Shown: positions 851 through 33,940 of the stretch, one piece after another | Position numbering within the stretch: the stretch's first letter is position 1 | Layout of the letters: each line of letters begins with the position of its first letter | Assembly: GCF_913055165.1 (NCBI RefSeq) | Contig: NZ_CAJXJS010000008.1 | Span: 1 to 64,000 of the forward strand | Origin: an uncultured Devosia sp. | GTDB lineage: Bacteria > Pseudomonadota > Alphaproteobacteria > Rhizobiales > Devosiaceae | DNA: 64,000 nucleotides | Reading direction: 5' to 3' | Translations under genes and position numbers: made by a program | Notes under the pieces: model-generated | What the model was told of the DNA's origin: nothing | Databases searched by the model: none | What the model saw: the letters and a program-made list of their open reading frames with translations, nothing else

Positions 851-2395
851 TCAGCGGTCAATTAGAGCCCTTGACCATTTGAGCAAATGCCCAAAACCGG
901 GAATGGCTTTGCCAGCTTGGACTAGCATTTGCTTCAGCATGGTTTGCTGCCAATGCTGCAGGAACCTGCCCGGAATGCAGCTAAGCAGCAAAATCGGAGC
1001 GCTTGCTGCAGCAATCGGGGCTATTGCGAGAACTGCAATTTCCGGTGCGTCGTTCATCCGCAGAAAGTTGGCCGCAATCCACATAACACCGGCGTATATC
1101 GCGATGAGCGCAAATGGCCCGAGATGCATTGAGAGCAAATCTGAGAAGTTCGATCGACAAATCTTGGCCGTTGTAAGCAGTGAACCTGACCATTGAATCA
1201 CGCTTACAAACACAACACCAACAGCCGCACCATTGATGCCAGCGACGACGGTTCCCAACCAGACGAAAGCGGCCAGACAGACTGTCGTTAGAAAATTAAG
1301 CCAGAAAACGGTAAGGAGATTTCCTCGTGCGCGTCCAATCGCCACCACTAGTCTGAGAGCGTAACGTAACCCCATCGCCATTGTCAGGCATTGAAACGGG
1401 AACACCGCCGCTGTCCAGGCGCCGCCGCCCAAAAGCAGGCCAATTGTTTCCGGACCAAGGACACATAAAGTAGCAGAAATGGGAAGCATTGTTGCCGCTC
1501 CGGCAAACAGGCCTTTCTGGGCAGCTTTGTTGAAGCGTGATGTGTCGGTTTCCATTGCTGCTAGTGCCGGAAAAACTACCGATCGCACGGTTAAGCCAAG
1601 TAAGGTGTCGACTGGTGCGATGGCCAGCGTATAGGCGCGCGAGTAAAGTCCAAGGGCTTGTGCTCCCGCGATTACACCAACCATTGCATTGTCTAGCTGT
1701 TTGATGAACTTGGCAAAAAACCTGTTGGCTGTCCCCAAGAACGAATGGCGAAACATGAAGTCCAGTACTTCCCGAAGGTCAACGTTACCGACGTGAACAT
1801 CTGCAATGGCAGCTGCTCTACGCTGTTTATTGAGGAATGCCGCCATGAAAAAACAGCGCACGGCGGTCATTGCGATATAGGCTGTCGCCAACGCCATTGG
1901 CCCGGGAAAGAAGTACGCCATCAGGATGCCAGTCGCGCCGAAACCCAGCGCATAGCTCAGAAGGTTGGCCATTGCTACCTGTGAGAGGGCGCGGCCCCTA
2001 ATGAGCAGCGCCTCGAAAGGCACCTCAAATGCCTCGATAAGGATGATCAGGCACATGATACGCACTAGGTCCGCCAAGCCCGGCATGCCAAGATTTGATT
2101 CGAACCAAGGAGACAGCGTGAAGAGCAACCCACCCCATCCGATTGACGAGATACTTAGCACCAGACGCGTTGTCTGCACATGAACGCGTGATATGCGTGA
2201 CCGCTGGATGAGGGCGTCACGCAGATCAAGCTGGGCGATCAAGGAAAGGATGGTCACAATGGCAAGTGACATTGCCACGAGTCCAAAGTCTGTTGGCGTT
2301 AGGAGACGAGCCAGGACCGCCAAAGCTCCCAGCCTTAGTATCAAGTTGCCAATTGATGTTCCTGAAACGATGAAAGCGCTTGCAAGTGTCTTCAT
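851..2395 (-). CDS. Wzx-type polysaccharide flippase (MOP superfamily)
   Basis: 514 residues made almost entirely of hydrophobic segments, consistent with the 12-14 helices of the polysaccharide-synthesis branch of the MOP superfamily. The N-terminal stretch (SGTSIGNLILRLGALAVLAR, then LLTPTDFGLVAMSLAI) is typical of WzxC/lipopolysaccharide flippases. The known role of the family is moving undecaprenyl-diphosphate-linked repeat units from the cytoplasmic to the periplasmic face of the inner membrane. It is the last gene of the minus-strand operon that starts at gmd (11808), after the final sulfotransferase. The inferred cargo is therefore an already sulfated repeat unit. Base composition is visibly richer in A/T than in the housekeeping genes to the right. 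Confidence 0.85.
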   Translation of the reverse strand: MKTLASAFIVSGTSIGNLILRLGALAVLARLLTPTDFGLVAMSLAIVTILSLIAQLDLRDALIQRSRISRVHVQTTRLVLSISSIGWGGLLFTLSPWFESNLGMPGLADLVRIMCLIILIEAFEVPFEALLIRGRALSQVAMANLLSYALGFGATGILMAYFFPGPMALATAYIAMTAVRCFFMAAFLNKQRRAAAIADVHVGNVDLREVLDFMFRHSFLGTANRFFAKFIKQLDNAMVGVIAGAQALGLYSRAYTLAIAPVDTLLGLTVRSVVFPALAAMETDTSRFNKAAQKGLFAGAATMLPISATLCVLGPETIGLLLGGGAWTAAVFPFQCLTMAMGLRYALRLVVAIGRARGNLLTVFWLNFLTTVCLAAFVWLGTVVAGINGAAVGVVFVSVIQWSGSLLTTAKICRSNFSDLLSMHLGPFALIAIYAGVMWIAANFLRMNDAPEIAVLAIAPIAAASAPILLLSCIPGRFLQHWQQTMLKQMLVQAGKAIPGFGHLLKWSRALIDR

Positions 2396-2579: not shown

Positions 2580-3491
2580 CTATTTCCCTATTGCATTTGC
2601 ATAGCCATATCTAATAAGAAATGGCAGCGTTATTGCTGCAACTGTTGAGGCGTTGATCCCCGAAATTTCGTTCCTCCAACTGGTATCTGCATTGATTTTT
2701 GAGAAGCCGGCTAGGCGCGCGGGGTTCCCGGATACAGTATGGTCTGTCTTAAACTGAGGTGAGTAGACGCCAATTTCTGGGAGCTCGTTTAGATAAGGCA
2801 TGAGAGCCTCCGCCCCGAACTCGCACAATTGTTCATATTTGATCCGTTGATACGTGCCTGTCGTTCCGCGCAGCGCTTCTGCTGATACCTGGACCTTTAG
2901 CCATGCCAAGCCGCTCTGAAGGTATGAGCGTTGGGTCATCATGTCGCCAGCCCGACCGCTGTCGATCTTTGGGCGTTTCTTCGCCGCTGAATAAGCTACA
3001 CCACGCGGGTCACGCACCAAATGAAGCACGTGTACGCGGTCGGCTCCAAAACAATCGACAAGCAGCCGTGCATAGATGGGATGTTTCGAACTATCGACTA
3101 GCCATGGTGTGCGGGCGATTTGCGCCGCAGATTCATAAAGTCTGGTGATAAGGTTAAGCATATCCTGATAATCAGAGGTACGGTTCTCGGGTGTGTTCCA
3201 TCGCCTTAGCGAGTGGACTTTGAGAGCCGCATGCAACTGATCATGCCGCGCCATCGCATTTTCACCTGCTAGACCCGCATTTTGCACCACTGCGTTCCAG
3301 AAGGAACATGCGGAAAACTGTTGTTCGCACCCGCACAGATGATCCAGTGCTAACCCCCTATCCCAAAAATGGATGAGCTCCCCGAGGTAACTGGCATTTG
3401 TGAAGCGGCCGGCAAGCGTACCTGCAAGCGTGCTCCCACTACGAGCAGAACCCACAATTAGTAGAATTCTGGGTGTCTCGGTTGTCGCCAA
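2580..3491 (-). CDS. sulfotransferase (third GT-ST pair)
   Basis: 303-residue cytosolic protein. A 5'-phosphosulfate-binding P-loop is visible near residue 12-20 (VGSARSGSTLAG), and the 3'-phosphate-binding motif (HLVRDPRGVAYS) lies around residue 160-170. This is the standard order in PAPS-dependent sulfotransferases. A cysteine-rich stretch (LCGCEQQFSACSFW) near residue 55-65 is typical of the bacterial Sulfotransfer_3-like group. The family transfers sulfate from PAPS to a hydroxyl or amine and releases PAP. The gene starts 3 bases after the stop of glycosyltransferase 3495-4607, so the two are almost certainly co-translated. The acceptor is unknown; a sugar of the lipid-linked repeat is inferred from context. 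Confidence 0.85.
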   Translation of the reverse strand: MATTETPRILLIVGSARSGSTLAGTLAGRFTNASYLGELIHFWDRGLALDHLCGCEQQFSACSFWNAVVQNAGLAGENAMARHDQLHAALKVHSLRRWNTPENRTSDYQDMLNLITRLYESAAQIARTPWLVDSSKHPIYARLLVDCFGADRVHVLHLVRDPRGVAYSAAKKRPKIDSGRAGDMMTQRSYLQSGLAWLKVQVSAEALRGTTGTYQRIKYEQLCEFGAEALMPYLNELPEIGVYSPQFKTDHTVSGNPARLAGFSKINADTSWRNEISGINASTVAAITLPFLIRYGYANAIGK

Positions 3492-3494
3492 TTG

Positions 3495-4607
3495 TCAAAT
3501 TCCCTGCTGTGTGGTGCAATTGTTGATGACTGTCACATAGCGATCTGCCCAAGGCTCCACCCCAAACTTCTCGCGTGCCTTAGTTTCGCGTTCCTCTCTC
3601 GTATCCGGTTCGGACAGAATGGCTGCCAACTCGCGCGCCATTGCATCCGAATTGCCAACTGGCACCAGCCGTCCCAGCAAAGGTTCACTGAGTATCTCAC
3701 TTGGTCCAGAAGGGCAGTTGGTCGCGATGCAGGGCGTGCCGGTTGCCAGCGCCTCGATTAGGGCGTTGGGGCTACCCTCCCAGCGCGAGGAAAGGACGAA
3801 CAATTCTGCCCGAGACATCCAAGAAAACGGGTTTTCTTGAAATCCAGGCATCAAAACACGTTTAGCAATCCCCAGTGTCTCTGTAAGTCGTTCAAGTTCT
3901 CCCCGTAGTCGACCTTCACCGAGAATCACCAGTTTGACGTCGTTCGGGAGACCGGATTTGGCAAACGCCGATATCAAGGTGGGAAAATCCTTCTGCTCAA
4001 CCAACCTGCCAGCGCCAAGAACATATCGGCAATTTTTTAGTTCGGAGAGCCACGGCTCTGGCAACGGTTCTCTGGCCCTCTTGACGACATAATCATGATC
4101 CGTTGCGTTACCAATCAGTGATATTTTACTCTCGGGCCAGCCAGTAAGTTTGGCTAAGTCGTCCTTTCCTGCTTGAGAGACTGCGACGATGCCCTCGGCC
4201 TGACGATAGAGCAGAGGTAAGAGCGGTCGCCAAAACCTGAGCGCCCCCTTAACTGTTGAGCCTATTCGGTTAGGCTCGCGAATAATTACGTGATTATCAA
4301 TAGCTTTAACAAGCTTAAGAAGACCTAGAACGCGGCTGATATTCGTCTGAGCTGAAATCAAAGTGACATCGGGATTGGCATTGCAAAAACGACGAAGTCC
4401 GATCGCCATGGCCAAGGTACTCTTTCCAACCGTGGTTATGCGCGTGTTTGGCGGAAGTGAATGTTGGTATGCACCGAATTTTTGCGCGACGATGATATCG
4501 ATTTTCGCGCCTCTTCTAAAAAGGGCATTGGCGAGCGTGACCATTGCTCGTTGTGCACCACCCACGCCAAGATTCATGATGCACAAAGCAATACGAGCAT
4601 GCATCAT
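3495..4607 (-). CDS. family 4 (GT-B) glycosyltransferase
   Basis: 370 residues. The N-terminal Rossmann half opens with IALCIMNLGVGGAQRAMVTL, the usual glycine-rich start of GT4 enzymes. The C-terminal half carries RYVLGAGRLVEQKDFPTLI and the sugar-nucleotide-binding EX7E region (WEGSPNALIEALATGTP). This is a retaining GT4 enzyme that would add one sugar to the growing repeat on the cytoplasmic face. It overlaps the upstream sulfotransferase stop by four bases (ATGA) and is followed after 3 bases by another sulfotransferase. Donor and acceptor cannot be read from sequence. No signal peptide. Confidence 0.88.
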   Translation of the reverse strand: MMHARIALCIMNLGVGGAQRAMVTLANALFRRGAKIDIIVAQKFGAYQHSLPPNTRITTVGKSTLAMAIGLRRFCNANPDVTLISAQTNISRVLGLLKLVKAIDNHVIIREPNRIGSTVKGALRFWRPLLPLLYRQAEGIVAVSQAGKDDLAKLTGWPESKISLIGNATDHDYVVKRAREPLPEPWLSELKNCRYVLGAGRLVEQKDFPTLISAFAKSGLPNDVKLVILGEGRLRGELERLTETLGIAKRVLMPGFQENPFSWMSRAELFVLSSRWEGSPNALIEALATGTPCIATNCPSGPSEILSEPLLGRLVPVGNSDAMARELAAILSEPDTREERETKAREKFGVEPWADRYVTVINNCTTQQGI

Positions 4608-5437
4608 TCGTATCCCAGTCTTGCGGGGAGTTTTCCTAAGGATTGTTCAAAAGCGACCCGAGCGTCGTTGACCAGATGGTCCTGCCACGGCCTTTGACCC
4701 GCGGCGGCATATTTTTTGTCCGGGTTAGACTTGTTGCCGCGCAACTTTCCTATCGAGTATGTGTCCAAAACAGCGTTTAGTGTTCCCGGGCTGGTCAAGA
4801 TGTCAAGATGATCAAAAATATCCATCCAAGTCTGTTTCTGCGAAGCACCTATGAGATCTTCGAATCTTACCAGTTTGCAGTCAACACTGTTTTCTATTCG
4901 ATTTAGCCAAGCTTCAAAAACCGGGACAAACTCCTTCTCGAATTCTGAGATCATGTAAGTCAGCGCTTGCTCTTCGTTCAACCCCTCCATAGCTTGGCGG
5001 TGTCTTTCGACTCCTTCTGTGGACACATGCGAGAAACGCGTCGAAAAATACCAGGAAACTAGGAGTGCGCGCGGGTCTCGAACAACGAAAATGGAACGGA
5101 ACGGGGCGCCGTCCAACTGAATACTGGCATGTTCAGGCGTTCCATAACAGGCGAGCAAGGATGCTCCGGGTACTCTGCCGATATCGGGAATGGAAGTAGT
5201 TTGCCTTTTGTACACACCCCAAACATAGGGTAAGTGTCCGCTGGCCCGATATATGCGTGGATCTGATAGGACCAGGCGAACAAATTGGCTCCCAGTTTTC
5301 CATAAGCAAGCATGTACAATCCTAGAGTGCTGGGAGCGATGTTTTAATGGAATCAAACTGTATGCGCCGCGGCGCACGCTATATTCGCTCTTCAGTGAAA
5401 CGAGCGGGCGCAAGAGATTTCTAACTTGGCGAAGCAT
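4604..5437 (-). CDS. sulfotransferase (second GT-ST pair)
   Basis: 277 residues. The 5'-phosphosulfate-binding region is HACLWKTGSQFVRLVLSD near residue 43-60; the KTGSQ core is a lysine-bearing variant of the usual P-loop. The 3'-phosphate-binding motif FVVRDPRALLVSWYFS follows near residue 115-130. A late segment with KLRGNKSNPDKKYAAAG resembles the PAPS-contacting RKG-type loop. Assigned as a PAPS-dependent sulfotransferase from these motifs and their order. It lies 15 bases after glycosyltransferase 5453-6622 and overlaps the next glycosyltransferase by ATGA, so translation is coupled on that side. It is clearly divergent from the sulfotransferases at 2580 and 6624, which suggests a different acceptor. 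Confidence 0.82.
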   Translation of the reverse strand: MLRQVRNLLRPLVSLKSEYSVRRGAYSLIPLKHRSQHSRIVHACLWKTGSQFVRLVLSDPRIYRASGHLPYVWGVYKRQTTSIPDIGRVPGASLLACYGTPEHASIQLDGAPFRSIFVVRDPRALLVSWYFSTRFSHVSTEGVERHRQAMEGLNEEQALTYMISEFEKEFVPVFEAWLNRIENSVDCKLVRFEDLIGASQKQTWMDIFDHLDILTSPGTLNAVLDTYSIGKLRGNKSNPDKKYAAAGQRPWQDHLVNDARVAFEQSLGKLPARLGYE

Positions 5438-5452
5438 GCTGTTTCTCTAGTT

Positions 5453-6622
5453 TTAATTGCTGTATATTGTTTGAGATTGTGCGCCGTTCCCACCCGGACG
5501 AACATTGCTCCCCGCCACTGCATTTAAAAATTGTGCGTAGGCGAACCGATCTCGTTTGATGCCCTGTTGTGCTAGTTGATGGGCGCGGGTCCGTGCGGTT
5601 TCCAGCACTTCTCGATTAGCGGACATTTTCTCCAGATGTGCGAGATAGCTGTCGGCATTGGATTCGCTTTCGGAAGCGACAATGGCCCCCGCGTCCCCAA
5701 CGTCTGACGCGATGCAACCCCTGTCAGCCGAGATAATGGCGCATCCGGCACACATGGCTTCTAAAACGACGTTAGGTTGTGCCTCCAAAGCGTATCGCGT
5801 CGCGAACATGAAGACATCTAAGCCTACGTAGAAGGCATCCTTATGCCGCCCATGCAACGGCCCGGTCACTTCCAGCATGCTGCCCAGATTCTCCTTTGCC
5901 ATATCGATCAACGTCTTGCTGGCGCTATCTGGAACTGGTCCTGCCAGGACAAAGTGTACCGGCAGGCATTTGTCTTTTGCACGCTGAGCAACCGCAAGAA
6001 AAGTGTCCAAACCCTTGGTCAGATAGAGATTAGACAGAAGGCCTACCCTGATAACGCTGTTATCGGGACGCCGCTCTGGTGCGGGCTGCCCAAGAAAATT
6101 GCTGTACTGGGAAAGGTTGCCTACGACCATATACGCGGCCTTCGAGTTGTAGCGTGCGCGATACTGCATGGCCATGGCGTCGCATAGAAACACGTGGAAG
6201 CCATTCACGGATCTATCGATCCAGCCTGCCAGCCGTTTTGTCGTCCGCACATACTGGAAAGTGCGGTGCTGAATAATAAGCCGGTAGCCGAGCAGACGGC
6301 CCGTCCAGGCAAGCAGAAACGTATAAATTAGGCCCCAACCGCCATCGGACACCAAATAGAGCGTGCGTTCTCGGTTTTCGAAGCGCTTCAGGAAAAGCAC
6401 GCACAGAGCCTTCGCCACACGAAACAGTTTTAGAGTACGGCTTGCTGGATTTCGAGTGAGACTACCTGCTGCAATGGTGCAGCGCGTCAAGCGAACACCG
6501 TCAATTTTGCTGATGTCTTCAGTGATTGCCGCGAGGTTTTTCGACTGCCCATTTATGGGCGGTGGCAGGCTGCCGATAACCACCACGCTGTGTTTAGTAG
6601 AGGGTGTTACTTCTCGGAGCAT
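5453..6622 (-). CDS. family 4 (GT-B) glycosyltransferase
   Basis: About 389 residues from the ATG at 6622. An in-frame ATG at 6655 would add 11 residues and overlap the preceding gene. I favour 6622 because a purine run (GGGGGGCGGAAAC) precedes it at ribosome-binding distance and the upstream stop is one base away. The N-terminal SVVVIGSLPPPINGQSKNL loop and the C-terminal EAQPNVVLEAMCAGCAIISA segment are GT4 hallmarks. The predicted role is addition of one sugar to the repeat unit in the cytoplasm. It sits between two sulfotransferases in the alternating operon. Substrate unknown. Confidence 0.85.
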   Translation of the reverse strand: MLREVTPSTKHSVVVIGSLPPPINGQSKNLAAITEDISKIDGVRLTRCTIAAGSLTRNPASRTLKLFRVAKALCVLFLKRFENRERTLYLVSDGGWGLIYTFLLAWTGRLLGYRLIIQHRTFQYVRTTKRLAGWIDRSVNGFHVFLCDAMAMQYRARYNSKAAYMVVGNLSQYSNFLGQPAPERRPDNSVIRVGLLSNLYLTKGLDTFLAVAQRAKDKCLPVHFVLAGPVPDSASKTLIDMAKENLGSMLEVTGPLHGRHKDAFYVGLDVFMFATRYALEAQPNVVLEAMCAGCAIISADRGCIASDVGDAGAIVASESESNADSYLAHLEKMSANREVLETARTRAHQLAQQGIKRDRFAYAQFLNAVAGSNVRPGGNGAQSQTIYSN

Positions 6623-6623
6623 G

Positions 6624-7523
6624 TCAGTTTCCGCCCCCCTGCGTGGTGTTGACATAGCCGAATGCTCTCAGTTCCTGCGCGAGCATTAGCCCAATACGAT
6701 CAGCGTCACCTGCCGACATGGCGGTTCGCCATTTCTCCGTGCCGCCCTCGCGAAATGTATGCGATTTGCCCGGATCGATGGCCGCTTCCATACTATAGAT
6801 CAATCGGTCCTCATGGGCGCCCGGCACCCCTGCTTTTTTTAGCTTTGCTGCGATGTGGCCCAGGACATCAAGACGGTTGGGTCCCACCAGATCTTCGTAC
6901 TTGATCGACAGTGTTTCGGGATGCTGCAACCAGCCGACAAAAGGGGCTATTCGTTTCGCGCAATCGGGATAACGGTCATCAAAGCCTTCAATAGCCACCT
7001 TTAGGCGATCATGTGGATCGTCGATTTTTGAGAAAACCTTATGCATTCGGTGCCAGCGGTTCATATCTGCTAGATAGTTAACTTCCGACAGCAATACATC
7101 TCGTGGATCACGATAAATAAACAAATGGACTGCATTTATGGCGCTCATGGCCGCCGCTGCGGAATCAGAGTAATATAAGTGGGCTCCAACCGTTTCTCCT
7201 GGAAGAAGACCGCATATTTTTTTTGCCAAAACTGTCTGTGATCGTTCCTTGAGAGTTAACGAGGGCGTGGTTGCGATAAACCCACCGAAGTATCGAGTAC
7301 TCGGCAAAGCGCGCGTAATCTGGAGGAGGAGATGCGTTCCACTTTTGGGCAGGGAATTAACTATGATCGGTGGATTATTTGCATAATCCCGTGTTGTTGC
7401 GAAAGCACGCATTGCCCGTTTTGGCGCCACAAGACTAAAAGCAAGTGCCTTCCGGGCCACGTTGCTATTACGGACCATACCCACGTCAAACAAGGAGTTC
7501 ATTCTTTGCCACCAAAAGGCCAC
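6624..7523 (-). CDS. sulfotransferase (first GT-ST pair)
   Basis: 299 residues. A textbook P-loop (IIVNSLPKSGTHLLLQI, residues ~53-68) binds the 5'-phosphosulfate. FIYRDPRDVLLSEV around residue 130 is the 3'-phosphate site, and HTFREGGTEKWR near residue 255 is the C-terminal PAPS-binding segment. This is the most canonical of the three sulfotransferases here, resembling the Sulfotransfer_1 group. The start is uncertain: the frame overlaps the preceding glycosyltransferase by 25 bases from 7523, and alternative ATGs lie at 7502 and 7478. It is followed one base later by the start of the next glycosyltransferase. The acceptor is inferred to be the sugar placed by the enzyme encoded just upstream. 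Confidence 0.88.
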   Translation of the reverse strand: MAFWWQRMNSLFDVGMVRNSNVARKALAFSLVAPKRAMRAFATTRDYANNPPIIVNSLPKSGTHLLLQITRALPSTRYFGGFIATTPSLTLKERSQTVLAKKICGLLPGETVGAHLYYSDSAAAAMSAINAVHLFIYRDPRDVLLSEVNYLADMNRWHRMHKVFSKIDDPHDRLKVAIEGFDDRYPDCAKRIAPFVGWLQHPETLSIKYEDLVGPNRLDVLGHIAAKLKKAGVPGAHEDRLIYSMEAAIDPGKSHTFREGGTEKWRTAMSAGDADRIGLMLAQELRAFGYVNTTQGGGN

Positions 7524-8803
7524 TGTTGTTCAATTGGCCTCCACCTCGGTAGCATTGTGTGCTTCCGGGGTCTGGCTTCCTCCATGCTGGCAAAGCAAGC
7601 TTGGAAGCGGCGGGCAATGACGTCAATGTCGAACGTACGCTCGGCATAATCTCGACCGCGCTGCCCCATAATCCGACCTTCTTCGGGATCGGAAAGCAAT
7701 CTTGCGGCGTTGTCTACGAGTTCGGTCGGGTTGCCGGGGTCACTCACAAGTCCGGCGCCCGCCCTAACAATAGTGCGGCTGGCCAGATTTTCGGCCGGCA
7801 TTGATGCAAGAATCGGCCGTCCGGCGGCAAGATAGGAGAGTATTTTTGAAGGAACGGAGAACCGACCGGCATCCTTCTCTATGAAACCACACAAGATGTC
7901 GGCTCCTGCAAGTACCTTGGGCAGGTCTTCGACCGAGACCCAAGGACGAACAAACATATTTCCGAGCCCTTCCTCTGCAGCGACACCGCGTACATACTCG
8001 GCGGCGCTTCCCATCGAGTAAAGGTGAATGTCGGCGTCGACGTTGCGAGCCAAATTGAGGAGAATGTCCGGGTTGTGTTTGCGGGCCAAAGTGCCGGAAT
8101 ACAATATCCTCGGGCGTCCTGGACGGAAATGGCGGTTGGCCACATCATTGTCACGCTGATAGAGCGGCATGTCGCCGATCGGAGCCCAGTTCTCGATTGT
8201 AGTGAAATGACGGGTGTCGACCCCCCAGCTCTTGATGAGATCGGTAAAGCCATCCGTTATGACGATTACAGCGTCGCTGTCCGCGAGCAGCCGACCCTCC
8301 ATCCACGAATAATATCTTGTCGCTGCTGACCCGAGCAGTGGGACGCGGCGCCCTAGGATGCGGCCGATGGCCTCTGAATGAAGGTCTTGGAGCCAGAATA
8401 CAAACTTGGCGTCGATTTTCCGGCATGCGGCGAGAAGGTGACTTTGCACTTCCAATGGGCAGTTTGAGGAGACTACAATTTTGGGCCGTTCAGCGATGAC
8501 CCTAGCAGCGGCTGTGCGTCCATACTCGATTTGCTGGCGATAACGCTTGATCAAATTGTCCTTGTTCACCGGCTCGGAGATGTTGATTTCATCAATCGCA
8601 AAGCAGGCGGGATCAGTCGCCGTCCTGCCGACCCTCCCTTTTGGCGAACCAAAACCGCCGAAAGAAAAATACGCCGTGCTTACGCCCTTGCGAGCCAAAT
8701 GACGGGCAAGCTGGGCCGTGAATCCGTAACCGCCGTAGTCATGGAATAGTATGTCGAGGGGATTTTTTCTCTGGGTCACTTGAAGTCGCTTTCTGCTTTC
8801 CAT
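7499..8803 (-). CDS. WbuB/WcaI-like family 4 glycosyltransferase
   Basis: 434 residues. Features include LDILFHDYGGYGFTAQLARH near the N-terminus, an internal FVFWLQDLHSEAIGR segment, RILYSGTLARKHNPDILL opening the C-terminal half, and SVPSKILSYLAAGRPILA near the nucleotide-sugar site. Together these fit the WbuB/WcaI branch of GT4, whose known members transfer fucosamine or fucose in O-antigen and colanic acid synthesis. This is the first glycosyltransferase after the GDP-fucose genes, so fucosyl transfer is a reasonable but unproven inference. The start ATG at 8803 lies inside the end of the SDR gene (28-base overlap), and no earlier in-frame alternative is better. Confidence 0.85.
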   Translation of the reverse strand: MESRKRLQVTQRKNPLDILFHDYGGYGFTAQLARHLARKGVSTAYFSFGGFGSPKGRVGRTATDPACFAIDEINISEPVNKDNLIKRYRQQIEYGRTAAARVIAERPKIVVSSNCPLEVQSHLLAACRKIDAKFVFWLQDLHSEAIGRILGRRVPLLGSAATRYYSWMEGRLLADSDAVIVITDGFTDLIKSWGVDTRHFTTIENWAPIGDMPLYQRDNDVANRHFRPGRPRILYSGTLARKHNPDILLNLARNVDADIHLYSMGSAAEYVRGVAAEEGLGNMFVRPWVSVEDLPKVLAGADILCGFIEKDAGRFSVPSKILSYLAAGRPILASMPAENLASRTIVRAGAGLVSDPGNPTELVDNAARLLSDPEEGRIMGQRGRDYAERTFDIDVIARRFQACFASMEEARPRKHTMLPRWRPIEQQWPFGGKE

Positions 8804-9738
8804 CGCCGGAGGGCTTCAGGGAGAGACGTCTTGAACCTCCACCCCCGGGAGACTAGTTCGTGGGGGTACAGATTGGTCGACTGGATGAGTTTTTTCACTC
8901 GCGCTCGATTTATGGAGGTCTTGAGCCCGAGCCTGCTAAGAACTTCAAATCCCAGGGCTGCCATATTGATTATGCTCTCAGGGACCACGATCGTTGGCAG
9001 CTCGAACCCGGCAGCCTCGTTGAAGGCACGATTGATGATTTCTGTGGTCGTGCGTTCTGGATAAGCATAGAGAAAACGGATGACCGGTTCATCGAAGGCG
9101 GCCATGAATTTTATGCAGTCGTAGAGATCATAGACTGGAGCGCACGCCTTGATAGTATCTTTGCGAGCTGGATAGACGAAGCGCCTCTTTCGCAGCAGAC
9201 TCGCTAGACGCTCGAAATTGCCATGCTCACCGTCGCCGAAAGTCACCGAAGGTCGGACTGTAACGAGACGTCGGGTGGGATCTACCGCTTGCCAATCCTC
9301 ATGAATCTTCTCGGCCAAGAGCTTTGACTTACCATATGCGGTGACAGGTCGAGGCTTTGTGCGCTCATCGACCTGTTCCTCCTGAGGGCCATAAATGCCC
9401 ATGGTAGAGGTGAAAATTATCCGGCGTGCGCCTATCGCTGTGGCGAAGCGACAGACCTCGATCGCGCCGCGCACATTAGTCCAGTAATACTCCCAATCTT
9501 CAAAGCCGGGAGTGGTGTGGACGGCTGCAAGATTGAAGATGACGACCTCGCGTTCGACAGCCAGATCAATGGGCTCACGCACATCGCATTGGACGAAATC
9601 GGCCTTGGCATGGGTAAACCGGGGTTCGCGGATATCGGCGAGCACGATCCGGACCACTTCCGGGTCCTCGGCAAGATGCCCGGCCAGATGGGTGCCGAAA
9701 AAGCCAGACCCGCCGAAGATGACCGCCGTATACGTCAT
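8776..9738 (-). CDS. extended SDR NAD-dependent epimerase/dehydratase
   Basis: 320 residues. The N-terminal VIFGGSGFFGTHLAGHL motif is the GxxGxxG NAD(P)-binding fold, and FTSTMGIYGPQ plus the YGKSK active-site YxxxK are intact. It therefore should oxidise, reduce or epimerise a nucleotide sugar or sugar-like substrate in the cytoplasm. It overlaps fcl by four bases (ATGA) and belongs to the gmd operon. A clear paralogue sits at 32203-33183, sharing NLAAVHTTPG, DWEY-WTNV and the late SINRAR--KL--STN blocks. A mevalonate/sterol-dehydrogenase-like 3-beta-HSD relationship is also possible from the C-terminal half. Exact substrate unknown. Confidence 0.82.
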   Translation of the reverse strand: MTYTAVIFGGSGFFGTHLAGHLAEDPEVVRIVLADIREPRFTHAKADFVQCDVREPIDLAVEREVVIFNLAAVHTTPGFEDWEYYWTNVRGAIEVCRFATAIGARRIIFTSTMGIYGPQEEQVDERTKPRPVTAYGKSKLLAEKIHEDWQAVDPTRRLVTVRPSVTFGDGEHGNFERLASLLRKRRFVYPARKDTIKACAPVYDLYDCIKFMAAFDEPVIRFLYAYPERTTTEIINRAFNEAAGFELPTIVVPESIINMAALGFEVLSRLGLKTSINRARVKKLIQSTNLYPHELVSRGWRFKTSLPEALRRWKAESDFK

Positions 9739-10679
9739 TGCCAGCGCTCCTGATTGGCGAGGAACCAGTCATAGGTCTCCGCAATGCCGTCCCGCAGCCC
9801 GATGCGGGGTGCCCAGCCCATGCCGCGCAGCCGGTCGGCGCTCATCAGCTTGCGCGGCGTGCCGTCCGGCTTGGAGAAATCGTGCACGATCTCGCCATCA
9901 AAGCCGACCGCTTCGCAGATCAGTTCAGTCAGTTCGAGAATGGTCACGTCCTCACCCGAACCGACATTGACATGCTCGTAACCGGAATAGGTCTTGAGCA
10001 GGAAGACCAAAGCGTCCACGCAATCGTCGGCATGTAGGAATTCGCGGCGCGGCGTGCCTGTACCCCAGACGGTGATGGTCTTGTCGCCGTTGAGCTTGGC
10101 GTGGTGGGCCTTACGGATTAGAGCCGGCAGGACGTGACTGGAGCTGAGATCGAAATTGTCGCCCGGACCGTACAGATTGGTGGGCATGGCAGAGATAAAA
10201 TCGCAGCCATGCTGTTTGCGGTAGGCCTGGGCGAGCTTGATTCCGGCGATCTTGGCGATGGCATACCATTCATTGGTCGGCTCGAGCGGACCGGTCAGGA
10301 GCGCATCTTCCGTAATCGGCTGCTCCGCCATCTTGGGATAGATGCAGCTCGAGCCTAGAAACAGCATCTTGCTGACGCCGTTCTCGAAGGCCGCCTGAGT
10401 GATATTGGCTTCGATGATGAGGTTTTCGTAGAGGAAGTCGGCCGGATAGGTGTCATTGGCCAGAATACCGCCCACCTTTGCCGCCGCCATGACAATGGCA
10501 TCCGGCTTGGCGTCGGCCATGAAGGCCTCGACCTCGGTCTGCCGCTTGAGATCGACGACATCGCGGCCCGCGGTAATCACTTCGCAACCTTCGGTGCCAA
10601 GCCGGCGCACCACGGCGCTGCCGACCATGCCGCGATGGCCGGCGACGTAGACGCGCTTATTGGTCAGATCGAAGGTCAT
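9735..10679 (-). CDS. fcl: GDP-L-fucose synthase
   Basis: 314 residues from the ATG at 10679. Translation upstream of that point is low quality, and the length then matches the family. RVYVAGHRGMVGSAVVRRL is the NADP-binding start typical of Fcl/WcaG. FLGSSCIYPKMAEQPI contains the conserved Ser and Cys, and NEWYAIAKIAG carries the YxxxK pair. The C-terminal part includes PTNLYGPGDNFD and TGTPRREFLHADD. It carries out the 3,5-epimerisation and 4-reduction of GDP-4-keto-6-deoxymannose to GDP-L-fucose. It lies four bases after gmd, the enzyme that makes its substrate, so the pathway assignment is firm. Confidence 0.96.
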   Translation of the reverse strand: MTFDLTNKRVYVAGHRGMVGSAVVRRLGTEGCEVITAGRDVVDLKRQTEVEAFMADAKPDAIVMAAAKVGGILANDTYPADFLYENLIIEANITQAAFENGVSKMLFLGSSCIYPKMAEQPITEDALLTGPLEPTNEWYAIAKIAGIKLAQAYRKQHGCDFISAMPTNLYGPGDNFDLSSSHVLPALIRKAHHAKLNGDKTITVWGTGTPRREFLHADDCVDALVFLLKTYSGYEHVNVGSGEDVTILELTELICEAVGFDGEIVHDFSKPDGTPRKLMSADRLRGMGWAPRIGLRDGIAETYDWFLANQERWQ

Positions 10680-10683
10680 GGCA

Positions 10684-11808
10684 CTACTCAACGCTGACGG
10701 GAAGGTCGAGCCCATGCTGCTTGAGAAGGGCATGGCGGCGCGCTGCCTTATGGTCCTCGCGAACCATCTCGGCGCACATTTCCTGGGCGGTAATTTCGGG
10801 GGTCCAGCCAAGCTTTTGCTTCGCCTTGCTCGGATCCCCCAGCAAGGTTTCCACTTCAGACGGACGGAAATAGCGCGGGTCTATGCGGACGATCACGTCA
10901 CCGGGCTTCAGGGCAGGGGCCATGTCGCCCTCGATCGCAGTGACGGTTGCTACTTCGTCAACGCCAAATCCGGAAAATTCCAGGGTGATACCGAGGTCCT
11001 CAGCGGTCCAGCGGATGAACTCGCGCACGGAATACTGCACGCCCGTGGCGATGACGAAGTCCTCGGGTTCGTCCTGCTGCAGCATCATCCACTGCATGCG
11101 GACATAGTCTTTTGCATGGCCCCAATCGCGCAGGGCATCGATATTGCCCATATAGAGGCAGGGCTCGAGCCCCATGGCGATGTTGGAGAGACCGCGGGTG
11201 ATCTTGCGGGTCACGAAGGTTTCCCCGCGACGTGGAGACTCGTGGTTGAAGAGGATGCCGTTGCAGGCATAGATCCCATAGGCCTCGCGATAGTTCACCG
11301 TGATCCAATAGGCGTACATCTTGGCCACGGCATAGGGCGAGCGCGGATAGAAGGGCGTGGTTTCGCGCTGCGGGGTCTCCTGGACGAGGCCATAGAGTTC
11401 CGAGGTCGAGGCCTGGTAGAACCTTGTCTTCTTTTCAAGCCCCAGGAAGCGGATGGCCTCGAGCAATCGCAGCGTGCCGATGGCGTCGACATCGGCGGTA
11501 TATTCGGGCGCCTCAAAGCTCACGGCGACGTGCGACTGGGCACCGAGATTATAGACCTCGTCGGGCTCAATATCGCGCAGGATGCGCGTCAGGTTCGAGG
11601 TATCGGAGAGATCCCCATAGTGCAGCTTGAAGCGGCCATTCTTGGTGTGCGGGTCTTCGTAGATATGGTCGACGCGCTGGGTGTTGAGCAGCGAGGCCCG
11701 GCGCTTGATGCCATGCACTTCATAGCCCTTTTCGAGCAGAAGCTCGGCCAGGTAGGAGCCATCCTGGCCTGTAATACCGGTGATGAGCGCAGTTTTTCCC
11801 GACCCCAT
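10684..11808 (-). CDS. gmd: GDP-mannose 4,6-dehydratase
   Basis: 374 residues from the ATG at 11808 ([20 protein letters not shown]), the usual Gmd start. An upstream in-frame extension exists but is poor coding. Key segments are [19 protein letters not shown], the [10 protein letters not shown] Ser/Thr block with the catalytic Glu, and the [10 protein letters not shown] YxxxK. It removes water from GDP-mannose to give GDP-4-keto-6-deoxymannose, the first committed step to GDP-fucose. It is the first gene of the ten-gene polysaccharide operon, so the promoter should lie in 11809-12364. Confidence 0.96.
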
Positions 11809-12364
11809 GCAATATCCCCAATCAATAATCATGCGTTCAGCCCGTGATGATGCGGAAATGTCCGCAACCCGGTTGCTGAACTCCCAGTCCCAAAAACGAG
11901 GAAACCAACTACACGCAAAACTGCAAGTAGAAAACCACACCAATTGTTAATCGTGACCAATGGTTACCACGCGGACGGGAGCGAAACGCCTGGTTACGGC
12001 GGTGCTTCTTCCATCGGCCATCTGTTTTTGCATGGGACGAATGCAGTTCTCGCATGTATCGGAAGTGCGGGGCGTGGGGCTGCGGCGATGCCGAACGTGC
12101 GGAAACACAAGTTGGCGCACGCTCGGCCGCAAAGCCGGGGGATGTGCGCAAGACAAGCTGGCGCATGTCGACCACCGGGCATCCGTCAGGCATTGATACT
12201 GACCGGGTGCAACCGGCCAGTCCATGTCACCTCCATCATCGCAGCTCTCCCTGCACCCTCTGAATATACAATATGTGAATTTCGATTCCGGCTTGCCGCT
12301 CGCCTTTTAAGAGCCGCCGTAAAGCCGTTCCATGCCTCGCGCTTCGACCCCTCGATCACTGCGG
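11809..12364. other. intergenic region upstream of the gmd operon
   Basis: No gene is supported in these ~550 bases, although fragments stay open on both strands. The region should hold the gmd promoter. It contains a 6-bp stem (TGCGGA/TCCGCA, 11851-11866, AATG loop) close to the start and an imperfect direct repeat at 12097-12167 that may be an operator. The far end abuts the 3' end of the relaxase gene. Confidence 0.5.
12097..12167. repeat. imperfect direct repeat, 24-25 bases, two copies
   Basis: Copies at 12097-12121 and 12144-12167 share GTGCG, ACAAG, TGGCGCA and a final G in the same order with a few substitutions and a one-base length difference. Their starts are 47 bases apart. Both lie ~300 bases upstream of gmd. 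Paired direct repeats upstream of a large operon may be regulator sites, but no regulator is identified. Confidence 0.45.
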
Positions 12365-22683: not shown

Positions 22684-23475
22684 GTGGACAGTCTAGCGCG
22701 CGCTGAAACTTTGGATGGTGTCGCCCAAGTGGGCATGTATCCGCTCGACGATGTCGACCGGGAGCCTTCTCAAGATCATCAAGTCCTCGAATACCGTCAG
22801 CGGATAAGCTGGCATTCGGGTCTGCCCGTGCGCTGGACGACGATGCCGGATAATAGCGAACCGTCGCGCCGCCTGCAGCTGGCCATCAAACGGGTTATCG
22901 ACGTTACTGGTGCCGCGATTGGGTTGGTCATTCTCGCGCCATTGCTCATATTTGTGGCCCTTGCCATCAAGGCCTCCAGCCCTGGGCCGGTCTTTTTTCG
23001 ACAGGCGCGCGAAGGGCAGGGGGGTAAGCTGTTTGATGCGCTCAAATTCCGCTCAATGCGCATCGAGAGCTGTGATCTCTCAGGCGTCTCGCAGACGCAG
23101 GACAATGACCCCAGGGTGACCCCGGTCGGGCAATTCATCCGCCGGACGAGCATTGATGAGCTGCCGCAGCTGTTCAATGTTCTTGTTGGCGATATGTCCC
23201 TTGTAGGCCCGCGACCACATGTTCCGGGCATGCTGGCCGGCGGTCGGTCCTATCGGGAGCTCGTGCCCTACTACGATGAGCGCCTTGCGATGCCGCCCGG
23301 GATCACCGGTTGGGCACAGGCCAATGGCCTGCGAGGGTCCACGCGGGACCGGCGGTTAGCGCGTGAACGCATCGATCATGATCTGGCCTATATCCAGAAT
23401 TTTTCCGTCTGGCTGGATCTCAAAATCATCGCGAAAACCGTGGTTCGCGAGTTCTTCACCGGAAGCGGCAACTAG
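22684..23475 (+). CDS. undecaprenyl-phosphate sugar phosphotransferase (ExoY-like)
   Basis: 263 residues from a GTG behind AGAGGGAAC. After a ~60-residue polar leader comes one hydrophobic helix (VTGAAIGLVILAPLLIFVAL) and then the bacterial sugar transferase domain: SPGPVFFRQAREGQGGKLFD, LKFRSMR, RRTSIDELPQLFNVL, GDMSLVGPRPHVPGM and PGITGWAQANGLRG. It transfers a sugar-1-phosphate from a nucleotide sugar to undecaprenyl phosphate, priming the repeat unit at the inner membrane. It lacks the extra N-terminal helices of WbaP, as ExoY does. An IS element begins at the last base of its stop codon. It probably primes the polysaccharide built by the 851-11808 operon. Confidence 0.92.
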   Translation: MDSLARAETLDGVAQVGMYPLDDVDREPSQDHQVLEYRQRISWHSGLPVRWTTMPDNSEPSRRLQLAIKRVIDVTGAAIGLVILAPLLIFVALAIKASSPGPVFFRQAREGQGGKLFDALKFRSMRIESCDLSGVSQTQDNDPRVTPVGQFIRRTSIDELPQLFNVLVGDMSLVGPRPHVPGMLAGGRSYRELVPYYDERLAMPPGITGWAQANGLRGSTRDRRLARERIDHDLAYIQNFSVWLDLKIIAKTVVREFFTGSGN

Positions 23476-24325
23476 GCTGTGTTGACAAAAGGGATTCCCA
23501 AATCGCTGCCTGGCTGATTCAAGGCTTCCTTTCAGAGGAGGCAGTTTTGGCTCGGGGCGATCTGACTGATGATCAGTGGGCGCTGGTAGGGGCATTGTTG
23601 CCGGCCGAGCGTGGTCGGTGGTCTCGGCCAGCCCTGGACAACCGGCGCTTTCTGAATGGCATGCTCTATGTGTTGCGGGTCGGTTGCCCCTGGCGCGACA
23701 TGCACGAACGCTATGGCAAGTGGAACTCGGTCTATGTCCGGTTCCGGCGCTGGGCAGAGCAAGGGGTCTGGGACGCCTTGCTGGAAACGCTGGTCGAGCT
23801 TGGGCTCACCGACGACTGGCAGCACATGATCGACAGCACCACGGTGCTCGGCCACTCTCAGGCAGCGGGCGCAAAAGGGGGACTCATAAGGAGGGTTTTG
23901 GTCGAAGCCGCGGCGGCTTTACGAGCAAAATCCACGCCGGCGCAGACAGTCAGGGACGCCCTCTTGGCTTCGTCCTCACCGGCGGCGAAGCCTCCGACTA
24001 CAAGGCCATCGATGACCTGATCTCCTTGCCTGTCGCCAAACCCAGGCTGATGCTGGCTGACAAGGGCTACGACAGCGACGATGTCCGCGCCAGCCTGCTG
24101 CTCAAGGGGATTCTGGCGGTCATCCCGCCCAAGGCCAACGATAAAGAGGCCATCGCCTGCGATTACCGTGCCTACAAGGAACGTAATTGGGTCGAGCGCA
24201 TGTTCAACAAGCTCAAGCAGTTCCGGCGCATCGCAACCCGATAAGACAAGACCGCCGTCTCATTCCTTGGCTTCCTGGCATTCGCCGCCGCAAAGCTATG
24301 GATGCCAACTTATGTCAACAGGGCC
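23475..24325 (+). mobile_element. IS5-family insertion sequence (IS427 group)
   Basis: About 850 bases bounded by imperfect inverted repeats GGCTGTGTTGAC (left, from 23475) and GGCCCTGTTGAC (right end, ending 24325 when read inward). They are flanked by a TA duplication (23473-23474 and 24326-24327), typical for this group. It carries a two-frame transposase. If the TA duplication is right, the pre-insertion stop codon of the sugar transferase gene was TAA and is now TAG, leaving the protein unchanged. Confidence 0.85.
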
Positions 24326-24391: not shown

Positions 24392-25174
24392 TCACGCGGT
24401 CTGCAAAAAGCTCGTTGATCCATCAGGAGTAATTCGGACAGCACTCAACACGCCAGTGGCAAAGGCGCCGGTGTCCAGGCCGATGCGGCCGGGCGTGACT
24501 TCGGGGGCGCTGGTCGGAGTGTGTCCATGGACCACACGGTCCGGATAGGCGTTGTTCGCCCCTAGAAATTCTTCCCTGATCCAATGCAGGTCCGACGGGG
24601 ACTGGTCTTCGAGAGAAACGCCGGGTTTGACGCCAGCATGGACGAAGAGCCAGCCAGGTAGGCTGACGGTCCATGGGCGGCTATTCAAAAAATCCAGGTG
24701 CTCCTCGGGGATATAGGCCCTGAGCATCTGTTCAAGACGCCGGGTCCCCATTGCTGGAACTTGCGCTGTCGGCAGCCCGTAGGACTTAAGGGTTTCAAGG
24801 CCGCCAAGCTCGAACCACTGCGCCCACCGATGGGGGCGTTCAATGAACTCGGCTGCCATGACCTCATGATTGCCCTGCAAACAAATACGCTCAAACCCTG
24901 GAGGAGGGGGGGCGAGCAGGTGATCGATGACGCCGGCCGCCTCCGGACCACGATCGACATAGTCCCCCAGCATGATCAACAGCTTTGGCCCCTCGAAGCG
25001 GATGCCATCCGCGATGATCTGCCTTTCCAATTCCTGCAGTTCCGCAAGACACCCGTGCACGTCGCCGATCGCGTAAAGCGCTGAAGGCATTTGTTCGAGC
25101 CGGATATGTCGGCTGCCGCTTGTGGGGTGCTGTGGCTGCGATCGGCCCCAGAGACGTTTGAAAGCCCCGAACAT
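24392..25174 (-). CDS. PPP-family metallophosphatase
   Basis: 260 residues. The phosphoprotein phosphatase motifs are in order: AIGDVHG (~37), MLGDYVDRGPE (~70), LQGNHEVMA (~100), then LFVHAGVKPG and VVHGHTP carrying the later metal-binding histidines. It is a cytoplasmic two-metal Ser/Thr- or bis(5'-nucleosyl)-phosphatase type. It lies two bases after the ligase/polymerase gene on the same strand, so it belongs to the exoP operon. Related phosphatases occur in rhizobial exopolysaccharide loci. The substrate (a protein or a nucleotide) is not determined. Confidence 0.87.
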   Translation of the reverse strand: MFGAFKRLWGRSQPQHPTSGSRHIRLEQMPSALYAIGDVHGCLAELQELERQIIADGIRFEGPKLLIMLGDYVDRGPEAAGVIDHLLAPPPPGFERICLQGNHEVMAAEFIERPHRWAQWFELGGLETLKSYGLPTAQVPAMGTRRLEQMLRAYIPEEHLDFLNSRPWTVSLPGWLFVHAGVKPGVSLEDQSPSDLHWIREEFLGANNAYPDRVVHGHTPTSAPEVTPGRIGLDTGAFATGVLSAVRITPDGSTSFLQTA

Positions 25175-25176
25175 GA

Positions 25177-26583
25177 CTAACGATGCGAATTGCCGCGTTG
25201 CGCGCGCGACGTCGTGGCGAGGCCAGCCGCAACGATTGCGACGAAGAGGAAGGTGTTGGCAGGGATCTCCAGGCTGAAATCAACGGTGGAATGGATTGCC
25301 ACCTGCACGATCACCGCGAAAGCGGCAATCTGAGCGGTCCAGGAGCCAATATCCTGCCGCATTGCCTGCAGCAGGCGGAAGGCAATGAAGCCGACGGCAA
25401 GAATGGGCATCGACCCGGCGATCAGGCCCAGTTCTGCCCAGAGCGTTAAATAGGTGTTGTGCGCCATGCTCCAGGCCAAATCAGGGCTTAGCGGCAACTG
25501 GTGGACGATCGGGAAGGCAATGCCGAATGTGCCGCCGCCAAAACCGGTCAAGGGCCGTAGCGCGATCAGATCCAGCACCTGCTGGTAGAGCAGAAGACGA
25601 CTATCGGAACCAAAACCTTGCCATTCGATGCGTTCGAGGAGCCCGCCACCGAACAACCAAAGCAAGGCCACGATGAGGCCGACCCCCAGCGGAATGAGCA
25701 CGAGAAGCAGGCCCAAGCGGCGAATGGCCAGCAGGGCGGCGACGATGACCACAACCGATCCGGCAAGGGCGGCGAACAGGCCCATGCGGGACTGCGTTCC
25801 CACGATTGCGAGCATGAGAAACGCATAGGCAGCGCCATAGAGGATGACATTGCTGCGCAGCCCAGTGATCCAGCCGTCGTCCCGGTGCCGTTCGGCCTGC
25901 CGCTTCAGCACCGCGCAGCCATGGGCTAACGTCAGAATGGCGCCAAAGCCCAGAAAGGTGGCAAATGAGTTCCGATTGACAAAGCTCCCGGTCAGGGAGC
26001 CGAGATAAGCCCATTTGGGCAGGCCAAGAATGGTGTCCCCCGTTCTCAGAGCAACAAGTCCATAGGCCGCATAGGCAAGCGTGATGACGATTAGCCCATG
26101 CAACAGGACCGGACGGCGCTTGTCACTGATCCCCAGCTGCATGATCAAAACTGCGACGAGTGCGAAGCTTAACTGCCGCAGGAGCATCAGGACGGTCTGG
26201 CCCGGCGCAACGCTGGTCTGTGGTGCCGTCAGAACGATATTGCCTTCAGCCAGAATGGGCACTGCTCCCACCGGCACGAGCTGCAACAATAGAGCGATAA
26301 ATGTCAGGCCGAAAAGTGCGGTCGGAACGGGGTGTGCCGTAAGGGGCACGCGCAATTGTGACCTTGAACGCAGCTGCCAGGCGAAGAAGACCGTTGCGAT
26401 GAGACCGGCGTAAATCCCCCAAATCGTCCAGATGAACGGGCGTGCGCTGGCAAAAGGCAGGGGTACCAGCGCGAAGAGGACCAAGAGAGCCCATAATGCG
26501 AAACGGTTCTGGGGCCGGCTACGCGACTGATCGTTCAATAAACCCCCTGCGCGTCCGAGATGGGAAAGTCCTAGGGCCGCCAT
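25177..26583 (-). CDS. O-antigen ligase/Wzy-polymerase-like membrane protein
   Basis: About 468 residues from the ATG at 26583; an in-frame TTG two codons upstream is better spaced from AAGGTG and could be the real start. There are 10-12 hydrophobic helices with a periplasmic loop and the Wzy_C hallmarks: GSLTGSFVNRNSFATFLG, RPLTGFGGGTFGIAFP and SMAHNTYLTLWAELGLI. Known members either polymerise repeat units or join glycan to an acceptor in the periplasm. Next to an ExoP-type kinase and with no separate Wzy in view, it is most likely the polymerase of this polysaccharide. The HNTYL-type His is present. Confidence 0.85.
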   Translation of the reverse strand: MAALGLSHLGRAGGLLNDQSRSRPQNRFALWALLVLFALVPLPFASARPFIWTIWGIYAGLIATVFFAWQLRSRSQLRVPLTAHPVPTALFGLTFIALLLQLVPVGAVPILAEGNIVLTAPQTSVAPGQTVLMLLRQLSFALVAVLIMQLGISDKRRPVLLHGLIVITLAYAAYGLVALRTGDTILGLPKWAYLGSLTGSFVNRNSFATFLGFGAILTLAHGCAVLKRQAERHRDDGWITGLRSNVILYGAAYAFLMLAIVGTQSRMGLFAALAGSVVVIVAALLAIRRLGLLLVLIPLGVGLIVALLWLFGGGLLERIEWQGFGSDSRLLLYQQVLDLIALRPLTGFGGGTFGIAFPIVHQLPLSPDLAWSMAHNTYLTLWAELGLIAGSMPILAVGFIAFRLLQAMRQDIGSWTAQIAAFAVIVQVAIHSTVDFSLEIPANTFLFVAIVAAGLATTSRAQRGNSHR

Positions 26584-26599
26584 GCTCAAAATGACACCT

Positions 26600-31976: not shown

Positions 31977-32202
31977 CCGTTAGTTTGCAGTTTCTTCATT
32001 ATTTTTTGCTTCTTTCTGCGTCCTCTGGTTGACCAGTTCCTGCGGCCGCTGCACTTGTCGCTCCAAAAGCGCAGGGCAACTTGGTGTTACTGGTCGTTCT
32101 CTCCAGGTGTTCTAGTGGCGTCCGATCGATCTGCCGGCACGAATAGCGGGTTGATCAGGGCGCCGGGGAAACAAGGTGTCGCTCACACTGAGAGGAAGGC
32201 GA

Positions 32203-33591: not shown

Positions 33592-33940
33592 GGCTTGACC
33601 TTCCAGGCGGACAAATCGGCGGGATGATAGTTGCGATTTGGTAAATGAATGGTCACGCGTGTGCGAGGGTCTGGCTCGAGATTGGCAGGTTTTGGCTGAA
33701 CCCCACCCAGCCAACCATTTCAGTTCACCAAGGCTGATGGCATGCATCACTTCTGGTGCCCCCCGGCTAATTCGCAAACCATCAGTCCCACGAAATTGGA
33801 CGTTCTCTGGCAAGTGCATAAGTCCTGCCGATTGAACATTTGGGCAAAGTTGTCTACGAGGGGCTGCTTTCCTGGGCAGCGGTCGACGCCGGACGTCCCC
33901 AGTTTACGTTCTGGATAATTGATTGTTGGAAGGAGAGACT

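Follow-up and report, generated by a model that had tools for sequence, protein, structure and literature searches.

The first 64,000 bases of contig G000:C8 (86,705 bases) in a 3.87-Mb, 123-contig genome of an uncultured Devosia species, a stretch referred to below as the window, carry an operon in which three glycosyltransferase (GT) genes alternate with three sulfotransferase (ST) genes. As read from open reading frames (ORFs) and profile matches on the minus strand, its order of transcription is gmd-fcl-SDR-GT1-ST3-GT2-ST2-GT3-ST1-wzx, with SDR standing for a short-chain dehydrogenase/reductase gene. We consider it fairly probable that this operon serves the synthesis of a fucose-containing, Wzx/Wzy-type exopolysaccharide (EPS) that is sulfated in the cytoplasm. 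The window is an outlier among the loci compared here, yet across them neither alternation nor the placing of GTs ahead of STs holds as a general rule, and, judging from recurrence in other genomes, GT1-ST3 is the only pair that appears to be durable.

Genes were called by ORF and codon-position GC content, which confirmed the order GT-ST-GT-ST-GT-ST-Wzx given for the six minus-strand ORFs in an earlier note on this DNA. The three GTs are all GT4 type and above their Pfam cut-offs: GT1 (7499..8803, or from a GTG at 8779) scores 45.1 bits and GT2 (5453..6622, starting with the ATG at 6622, within a longer ORF from 6655) 56.4 bits against PF13692 (cut-off 27; the GT2 score was computed from the shorter start), and GT3 (3495..4607) scores 103.6 bits against PF00534 (cut-off 26.4). 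Between and after them lie ST3 (6624..7523, from a GTG at 7523 or an ATG at 7502), ST2 (4604..5437) and ST1 (2580..3491, with a TTG start). Read directly, the junctions between GTs and STs are tight. The SDR and GT1 genes overlap, GT1 and ST3 share an ATGA overlap (start at 7502) or 25 bases (GTG at 7523), ST3 and GT2 are 1 base apart, GT2 and ST2 15 bases, ST2 and GT3 share an ATGA overlap, and GT3 ends 3 bases before the TTG at 3491; the flippase gene follows ST1 after 184 bases. With the shorter starts, the GT/ST junctions span −4 to +15 bases, in agreement with the overlaps and few-base gaps reported before. That each GT is co-translated with the ST after it, as was also proposed, does not follow, since the ST-to-GT junctions are just as tight; translational coupling, if any, would span the whole series rather than join each GT to the next ST in particular.

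From profiles and predicted fold, all three ST products are sulfotransferases of the type that uses 3′-phosphoadenosine 5′-phosphosulfate (PAPS). ST3 and ST2 exceed the PF00685 cut-off of 22 bits (27.3 and 23.9 bits, respectively). ST1, on the PF13469/tyrosylprotein-ST side, falls under both cut-offs (22.7 against 27 bits for PF13469 and 16.7 against 22 bits for PF00685), but its profile, built with three relatives, matches the Protein Data Bank (PDB) sulfotransferases 4gox (1.2e-9) and CurM (5.8e-8). Its predicted model (pLDDT 72.8, pTM 0.78) retrieved 14 Foldseek matches with E values up to 0.001, all of them sulfotransferases, mostly tyrosylprotein STs, at modest TM-scores of 0.42 to 0.55. 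On the PDB profile match and these fold matches we reject the reading that ST1 is something other than a sulfotransferase. The profile of ST3 with its relatives matches PDB entry 5x2b (8.8e-10), whereas the sequence alone reaches an E value of only 0.47 at best. ST2 was predicted poorly (pLDDT 36.9), and its identity is based on PF00685 and on the match of its profile with relatives to StaL (2ov8, 1.9e-7); a 44% identical homologue in locus L076 is itself without a Pfam match. Each ST has a loop motif (PKSGTH, WKTGSQ and RSGST among the three) and an RDPR motif, and we take these motifs to bind PAPS. Sulfate transfer from PAPS is the predicted activity of all three. Neither the STs nor the GTs have a predicted membrane or hydrophobic segment. 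The STs differ as strongly as the earlier note had stated: the only alignable pair is ST2-ST3, by a weak local match (22.6% over 106 residues, E 1e-4), and with so little similarity we reject the reading that they are recent duplicates. In the genome as a whole, two PF00685 matches and one PF13469 match correspond to these three STs only.

The remaining genes of the operon and its surroundings include further candidate parts of such a pathway. At the head of the operon, gmd (10684..11814), for GDP-mannose 4,6-dehydratase, and fcl (9735..10691), for GDP-L-fucose synthase, pass the equivalog cut-offs of NCBIfam TIGR01472 (576.4 bits; cut-off 415) and NF047922 (535.7 bits; cut-off 500), so that the host can probably make GDP-L-fucose. 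The SDR (8776..9738; PF01370, 1.9e-22), a putative nucleoside-diphosphate-sugar epimerase/dehydratase, is a paralogue (46% identity) of a second SDR on the plus strand (32176..33183; PF01370, 9.2e-25). At the other end, the Wzx-type MOP flippase (851..2395) has 10 hydrophobic segments, scores 149.9 bits against PF13440 (cut-off 23) and also exceeds the PF01943 cut-off. Further EPS genes lie apart from the operon. A priming polyprenyl-phosphate sugar transferase (22684..23475, plus strand; PF02397, 9.6e-65) covers only the C-terminal part of long family models and stays narrowly under the cut-off of TIGR03025 (292.7 against 295.55 bits). On the minus strand follow a calcineurin-like phosphoesterase (24392..25174; PF00149, 3e-13), which recurs in the related EPS loci L054 (by annotation) and L076 (by Pfam), a Wzy/O-antigen-ligase-type protein (25177..26589; PF04932, 62.6 bits, cut-off 31.7), called from a family named for O-antigen ligases, and a Wzc/Wzz co-polymerase with a kinase domain (27374..29515; PF02706, 3.8e-13, and PF13807, 6.7e-11, above cut-off). 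Within the same block (24392-29515) sits a protein with weak tetratricopeptide repeat matches.

PAPS supply and the removal of its product 3′-phosphoadenosine 5′-phosphate (PAP) are both encoded. The window holds, on the plus strand, the PAP phosphatase CysQ (33923..34747; TIGR01331, 280.9 bits, equivalog cut-off 228.8) and a DASS/SLC13-type anion permease with TrkA_C domains (30195..31976; PF03600 and PF00939 above cut-off, TIGR00785 under cut-off), putatively for sulfate uptake. Contig C38 (L060) carries another pair of SLC13 and CysQ genes and, behind it, ORFs resembling CysD and CysNC, named from the starts of their sequences, with the adenosine 5′-phosphosulfate (APS) kinase domain (PF01583) inside the latter. 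Since 59 of the 61 genomes of the genus have APS kinase matches, PAPS supply is no special sign of a sulfated locus. A partial APS kinase match also lies at the end of contig C75 (G000:C75:10-165), where several other ORFs look transposase-like from their starts.

In the mechanism that we favor, the gmd-to-wzx run would belong to a Wzx/Wzy exopolysaccharide system, as the part of it that varies and was probably acquired. The priming transferase would load the first sugar onto undecaprenyl phosphate, and the three GT4 enzymes would extend the chain, at least one of them probably adding L-fucose from the GDP-fucose provided by gmd and fcl. Sulfation of the lipid-linked oligosaccharide by the three divergent PAPS-dependent STs would take place in the cytoplasm, the site of PAPS synthesis, before Wzx flips the sulfated unit and Wzy and Wzc polymerise and export it; CysD and CysNC would supply PAPS and CysQ would remove PAP. 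What the sequences show directly is the gene content and order, the junctions, the families and the co-occurrence of GT1 with ST3; from these we infer the sulfation of the polymer, its fucose content, the cytoplasmic stage and the place of action of each ST. The earlier proposal that a Wzx/Wzy unit is sulfated in the cytoplasm before flipping is supported by the STs without membrane segments, by the tight GT/ST run upstream of Wzx, by CysQ and by the APS kinase on contig C38.

Given three GTs and three STs, 2 of the 20 possible orders alternate (0.10), and it is possible, if less probable than the mechanism above, that the genes arrived piecemeal in a variable region and that their order is an accident of acquisition without functional pairing. 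To set the window in context, STs and GTs were labelled with locally built hidden Markov models in 84 loci including the window, namely, 78 of the 79 loci taken from genome contigs (L074, 3.3 kb, was omitted) plus L040, L052, L053, L056 and L061; L052 and L056 overlap, and L083 and L086 give an identical string. The loci were chosen by similarity to ST3 (the best 80 of 230 relatives, with at most 10 kb on each side), so that loci in which STs of other families alternate with GTs could escape the sample. The labelling also misses STs: it found two of the five and two of the four annotated STs in L052 and L056, respectively, and left the ST1-like gene of L053 unlabelled. By the records' own annotation, however, alternation in L052, L056 and L053 extends over no more than two same-strand neighbours. 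The same-strand alternating run of the window is six genes long, while none of the 83 other loci exceeds three and seven reach three. Only six of these others hold at least three STs and at least three GTs, and the opportunity for long alternation is therefore small.

General adjacency gives the pairing of GTs and STs little support as a rule. In 56 usable loci, ST-GT adjacency was not above that of shuffled orders (64 against 57.6, P = 0.12); a cruder labelling of 49 loci, which missed ST genes, gave 60 against 50.8 (P = 0.03), and we use the former version. Outside the window, adjacent ST-GT neighbours are GT first in 21 cases, ST first in 27 and on opposite strands in 24, and no preference for GT before ST was found among the same-strand neighbours (21 against 27) or among those within 20 bases (9 against 13). 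All of this suits piecemeal arrival. On the other side stand the run of six, unmatched in the 83 other loci, its tight junctions and the linkage of GT1 with ST3.

This linkage is real. In 79 loci, GT1 homologues (E under 1e-30) occur in 11 of the 15 with close ST3 relatives and in 0 of the 64 others (Fisher P = 1.5e-10), two close relatives on short or cut contigs (L068 and L074) being counted in the distant group. GT1 and ST3 lie within 200 bases of each other in 5 of the 12 loci holding both, window included. Two further genomes of the class have them adjacent (L152, with a GT1 match of 4e-95, and L153, with a weaker one of 1e-17), bringing adjacency in either order to 7 of 14 loci, a count in which L153 enters at 1e-17 and the other loci were held to 1e-50. 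GT1 comes first in the window, L152 and L153, and ST3 comes first in L069, L070, L071 and L075. The partnership recurs from Alphaproteobacteria to Mycolicibacterium, a Planctomycetota metagenome-assembled genome (MAG) and Caldithrix. It is without visible co-divergence, as the distances of GT1 and ST3 are uncorrelated in a mirror-tree test (Mantel r = 0.146, P = 0.23, n = 12), which again suits accidental acquisition. The co-evolution within each pair that the earlier note proposed as a check is not seen for GT1-ST3, and the other pairs are too few for the comparison. Since the partnership recurs, ST3 most likely sulfates the residue added by GT1 or its neighbour.

The STs themselves are rare among the nearest genomes. 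In 101 relatives, own genome counted, ST3 occurs in 3, ST2 in 1 and ST1 in 3, and profiles matched 3, 2 and 5 of 385 genomes of the class, respectively (limits 1e-20 for ST3, 1e-8 for ST2 and 1e-15 for ST1), while the entire PF00685 family is widespread, with matches in 210 of 397 genomes from the order. The listed ST3 relatives at 44 to 51% identity come from Mycolicibacterium hippocampi, Leisingera, Limimaricola, Halocynthiibacter and Salipiger, those at 42 to 46% from Phenylobacterium and those at 35 to 41% from Caldithrix, Planctomycetota, Pseudomonadales and others; no relative was found in viral contigs. The best (51%) is in Mycolicibacterium hippocampi (L063, 9854-10849), where genes resembling GT1 and Wzc are clustered with it. 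That it belongs to an actinobacterium points to a transfer across phyla.

The two other pairs fared differently from GT1-ST3, and the expectation that each pair would be kept in relatives was not borne out: GT2-ST2 was not seen together in any relative examined, and GT3-ST1 has one weak case, a GT3-like gene overlapping an ST1-like gene in L166. The Dinoroseobacter sp. MAG locus L076 has GT1, a GT2-like gene, the ST2 homologue, ST3, Wzc and the phosphoesterase, but there the ST2 homologue adjoins GT1 and the GT2-like gene adjoins another ST. Within the genus, L040 combines Wzy, Wzc and GT1 with an ST3-like gene whose frame is broken and with two more STs, one of which has a GT2-like gene next to it on the other strand; genome G015 holds Wzy- and Wzc-type genes, GT1, an SDR, a flippase, a GT2-like gene and three STs, one of them frame-broken, and an APS kinase lies some 3 kb beyond its GT2-like gene. 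The ST1-like loci L166 and L167 have GTs nearby, in L167 not directly adjoining, and six other labelled loci contain no ST1-like gene with a same-strand GT neighbour. Because the neighbours of ST2, GT2 and ST1 differ between loci, the STs seem to reassort among GTs, and ST2 and ST1 would behave as movable modules whose places beside GT2 and GT3 are unconserved. The changed neighbours of ST2 and GT2 in L076, and of GT2 in L040, also suit accidental acquisition. The claim of GT-ST pairing is partly supported, chiefly by GT1-ST3, and is not supported as a rule.

Several related loci deserve mention in their own right. A Pseudosulfitobacter pseudonitzschiae plasmid typed as conjugative (L052/L056) carries, besides genes for GDP-fucose, GTs and six genes annotated as sulfotransferases and is another candidate sulfated-fucose locus; its two annotated GT-then-ST pairs, each with a 4-base overlap, favor pairing. 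Eight regions (L041-L048) were selected among the PF00685 matches as candidate clusters of STs. Among them, L043 (L061 in its wider form) is an EPS locus in which GTs and STs occur together with an ORF called CysN-like after the start of its sequence, but do not alternate, and L045 (G074:C9, 7203-10093) contains three neighbouring sulfotransferase genes of one family. An EPS core of metallophosphoesterase, Wzy-type protein, Wzc, priming transferase and SDR, often with GT1, recurs with or without STs; it was seen with varying completeness in the window (22684-34747), L054, L076, L061, L065 and L166, the phosphoesterase of the last three being named only from its sequence start.

A second explanation, which we rate as high as accidental acquisition and likewise below an even chance, keeps sulfation on the cytoplasmic face but places it after the completion of the whole lipid-linked unit, so that alternation would have no temporal meaning. 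The parts of two reports on Halobacterium salinarum available to us describe sulfation of a lipid-linked glycan (PMC4335974) and complete assembly first (PMC13308652), and the varying places of STs relative to GTs between related loci fit the same order of events. The co-occurrence and frequent adjacency of GT1 and ST3, although compatible with it, read more easily as a partnership on one residue. A stricter coupling, in which the operon encodes three GT-ST relays, each ST sulfating the sugar just added and the next GT recognising that sulfate, appears doubtful, and the absence of a GT-first preference lowered its already small odds slightly; if true, it would mean residue-by-residue sulfation in a fixed sequence of steps, mirrored by the way the genes are arranged in a single operon. 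We find it improbable that some STs sulfate a nucleotide sugar or monosaccharide that a GT then transfers: in the available text on Vibrio sp. KMM 8419, the authors propose that rhamnose is sulfated before its incorporation into the polymer (PMC11641403), but this is a proposal only and nothing in the sequence here favors it. Least probable is that the STs act on another substrate, such as a glycolipid or lipopolysaccharide, and leave the polymer unsulfated. Bacterial STs, according to the part of PMC11625862 at hand, do also sulfate glycolipids and Nod factors, but those of the window sit between GTs and before Wzx, and most annotated close ST3 relatives are accompanied by GTs, Wzc or priming transferases in their loci.

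Other observations weigh against the cytoplasmically sulfated, Wzx/Wzy-dependent polymer that we favor, or against the completeness of its locus. An export protein of PF02563 was not found in the window. The single match in the genome is on contig C2, where a further Wzc-like ORF and one resembling a priming transferase lie close by, and the outer-membrane exporter may for this reason be shared, as in synechan. Because the window starts where the contig does, next to an IS110 fragment, the operon may be truncated there and may continue on another contig. The six GT/ST genes have 50 to 56% GC against 60% for the window, which suggests import, perhaps a recent one. Within the class, most genes related to ST2 or ST1 lie without GTs (none in the ST2-like L163 or in the ST1-like L164 and L165). 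The genome is 94.4% complete and its ST count covers PF00685 and PF13469, Stf0-family STs not having been searched; PF03567 gave nothing in it, but the controls of that search were equally silent.

The IS110-type transposase fragment (157-510; PF01548, under cut-off) lies just past the flippase gene, near the contig end, and the two EPS halves are separated by a MobQ-like MobA/MobL relaxase gene (12365-14362; PF03389, with its NCBIfam match under cut-off), an NAD kinase gene and others. At the far end, about 21.5 kb (42000-63556) match the Aminobacter aminovorans plasmid NZ_CP015007.1 at 85.5% identity, in six pieces covering 91% of a 22-kb query. This common island carries ATP-binding cassette (ABC) transporters, threonine synthase, dehydrogenases and aminotransferases.

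The timing and target of sulfation in bacterial surface polysaccharides are mostly open, and the roles given to single STs elsewhere are, in the accessible portions of the reports, proposals or gene-disruption phenotypes (PMC11641403, PMC8205485, PMC11766843, PMC13390465). A compact operon with one divergent ST per GT, together with the recurring GT1-ST3 pair, makes the timing and the acceptor of each sulfate testable, and the GT1-ST3 family pair could guide searches for more sulfated EPS loci and for position-specific sulfating enzymes. In open-licence PubMed Central (PMC) papers, to which the search was confined (subscription papers and supplements lay outside it), no description of three alternating GT-ST pairs was found, in line with the earlier note. 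The organisation therefore appears new, whereas the machinery is of an already known kind.

The mechanism most resembles that of synechan, the product of the xss locus of Synechocystis PCC 6803 (PMC8205485; compared here from part of the article). Synechan is likewise a Wzx/Wzy-dependent sulfated EPS made with two STs of distinct subfamilies, under a general scheme in which cytoplasmic modification precedes flipping, with the outer-membrane exporter encoded elsewhere, and its two sulfates per repeat roughly fit the number of ST genes. Deleting one of its STs abolished the EPS and deleting the other did not; the loss is as expected if sulfation precedes export. Its two STs and eight GTs are not in a 1:1 ratio, and its sugars are rhamnose, mannose, galactose and glucose, while the operon in the window opens with genes for GDP-fucose and has three GTs and three STs in alternation. 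The wps-1 locus of Actinoplanes missouriensis (PMC13390465) also has two STs of different families in a predicted Wzx/Wzy system for sulfated EPS; the text available describes no 1:1 alternation, and the product is itself a prediction. Two loci for sulfated capsules, one in Vibrio sp. KMM 8419 (PMC11641403) and one in Cobetia marina KMM 1449 (PMC11766843), as far as the consulted sections describe them, share STs, GTs and PAPS genes with our system, and Cobetia groups cysNC, cysD and cysQ with a sulfate permease much as contig C38 does; both differ from it by ABC-transporter export and rhamnose-containing disaccharide repeats, and the three ST genes of the Vibrio strain lie in three separate regions. 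The related EPS loci L040 and L076 differ from the window in that alternation spans at most two genes, the STs have other neighbours, the GT2-like gene adjoins an ST from a different family, and the genes lie on both strands.

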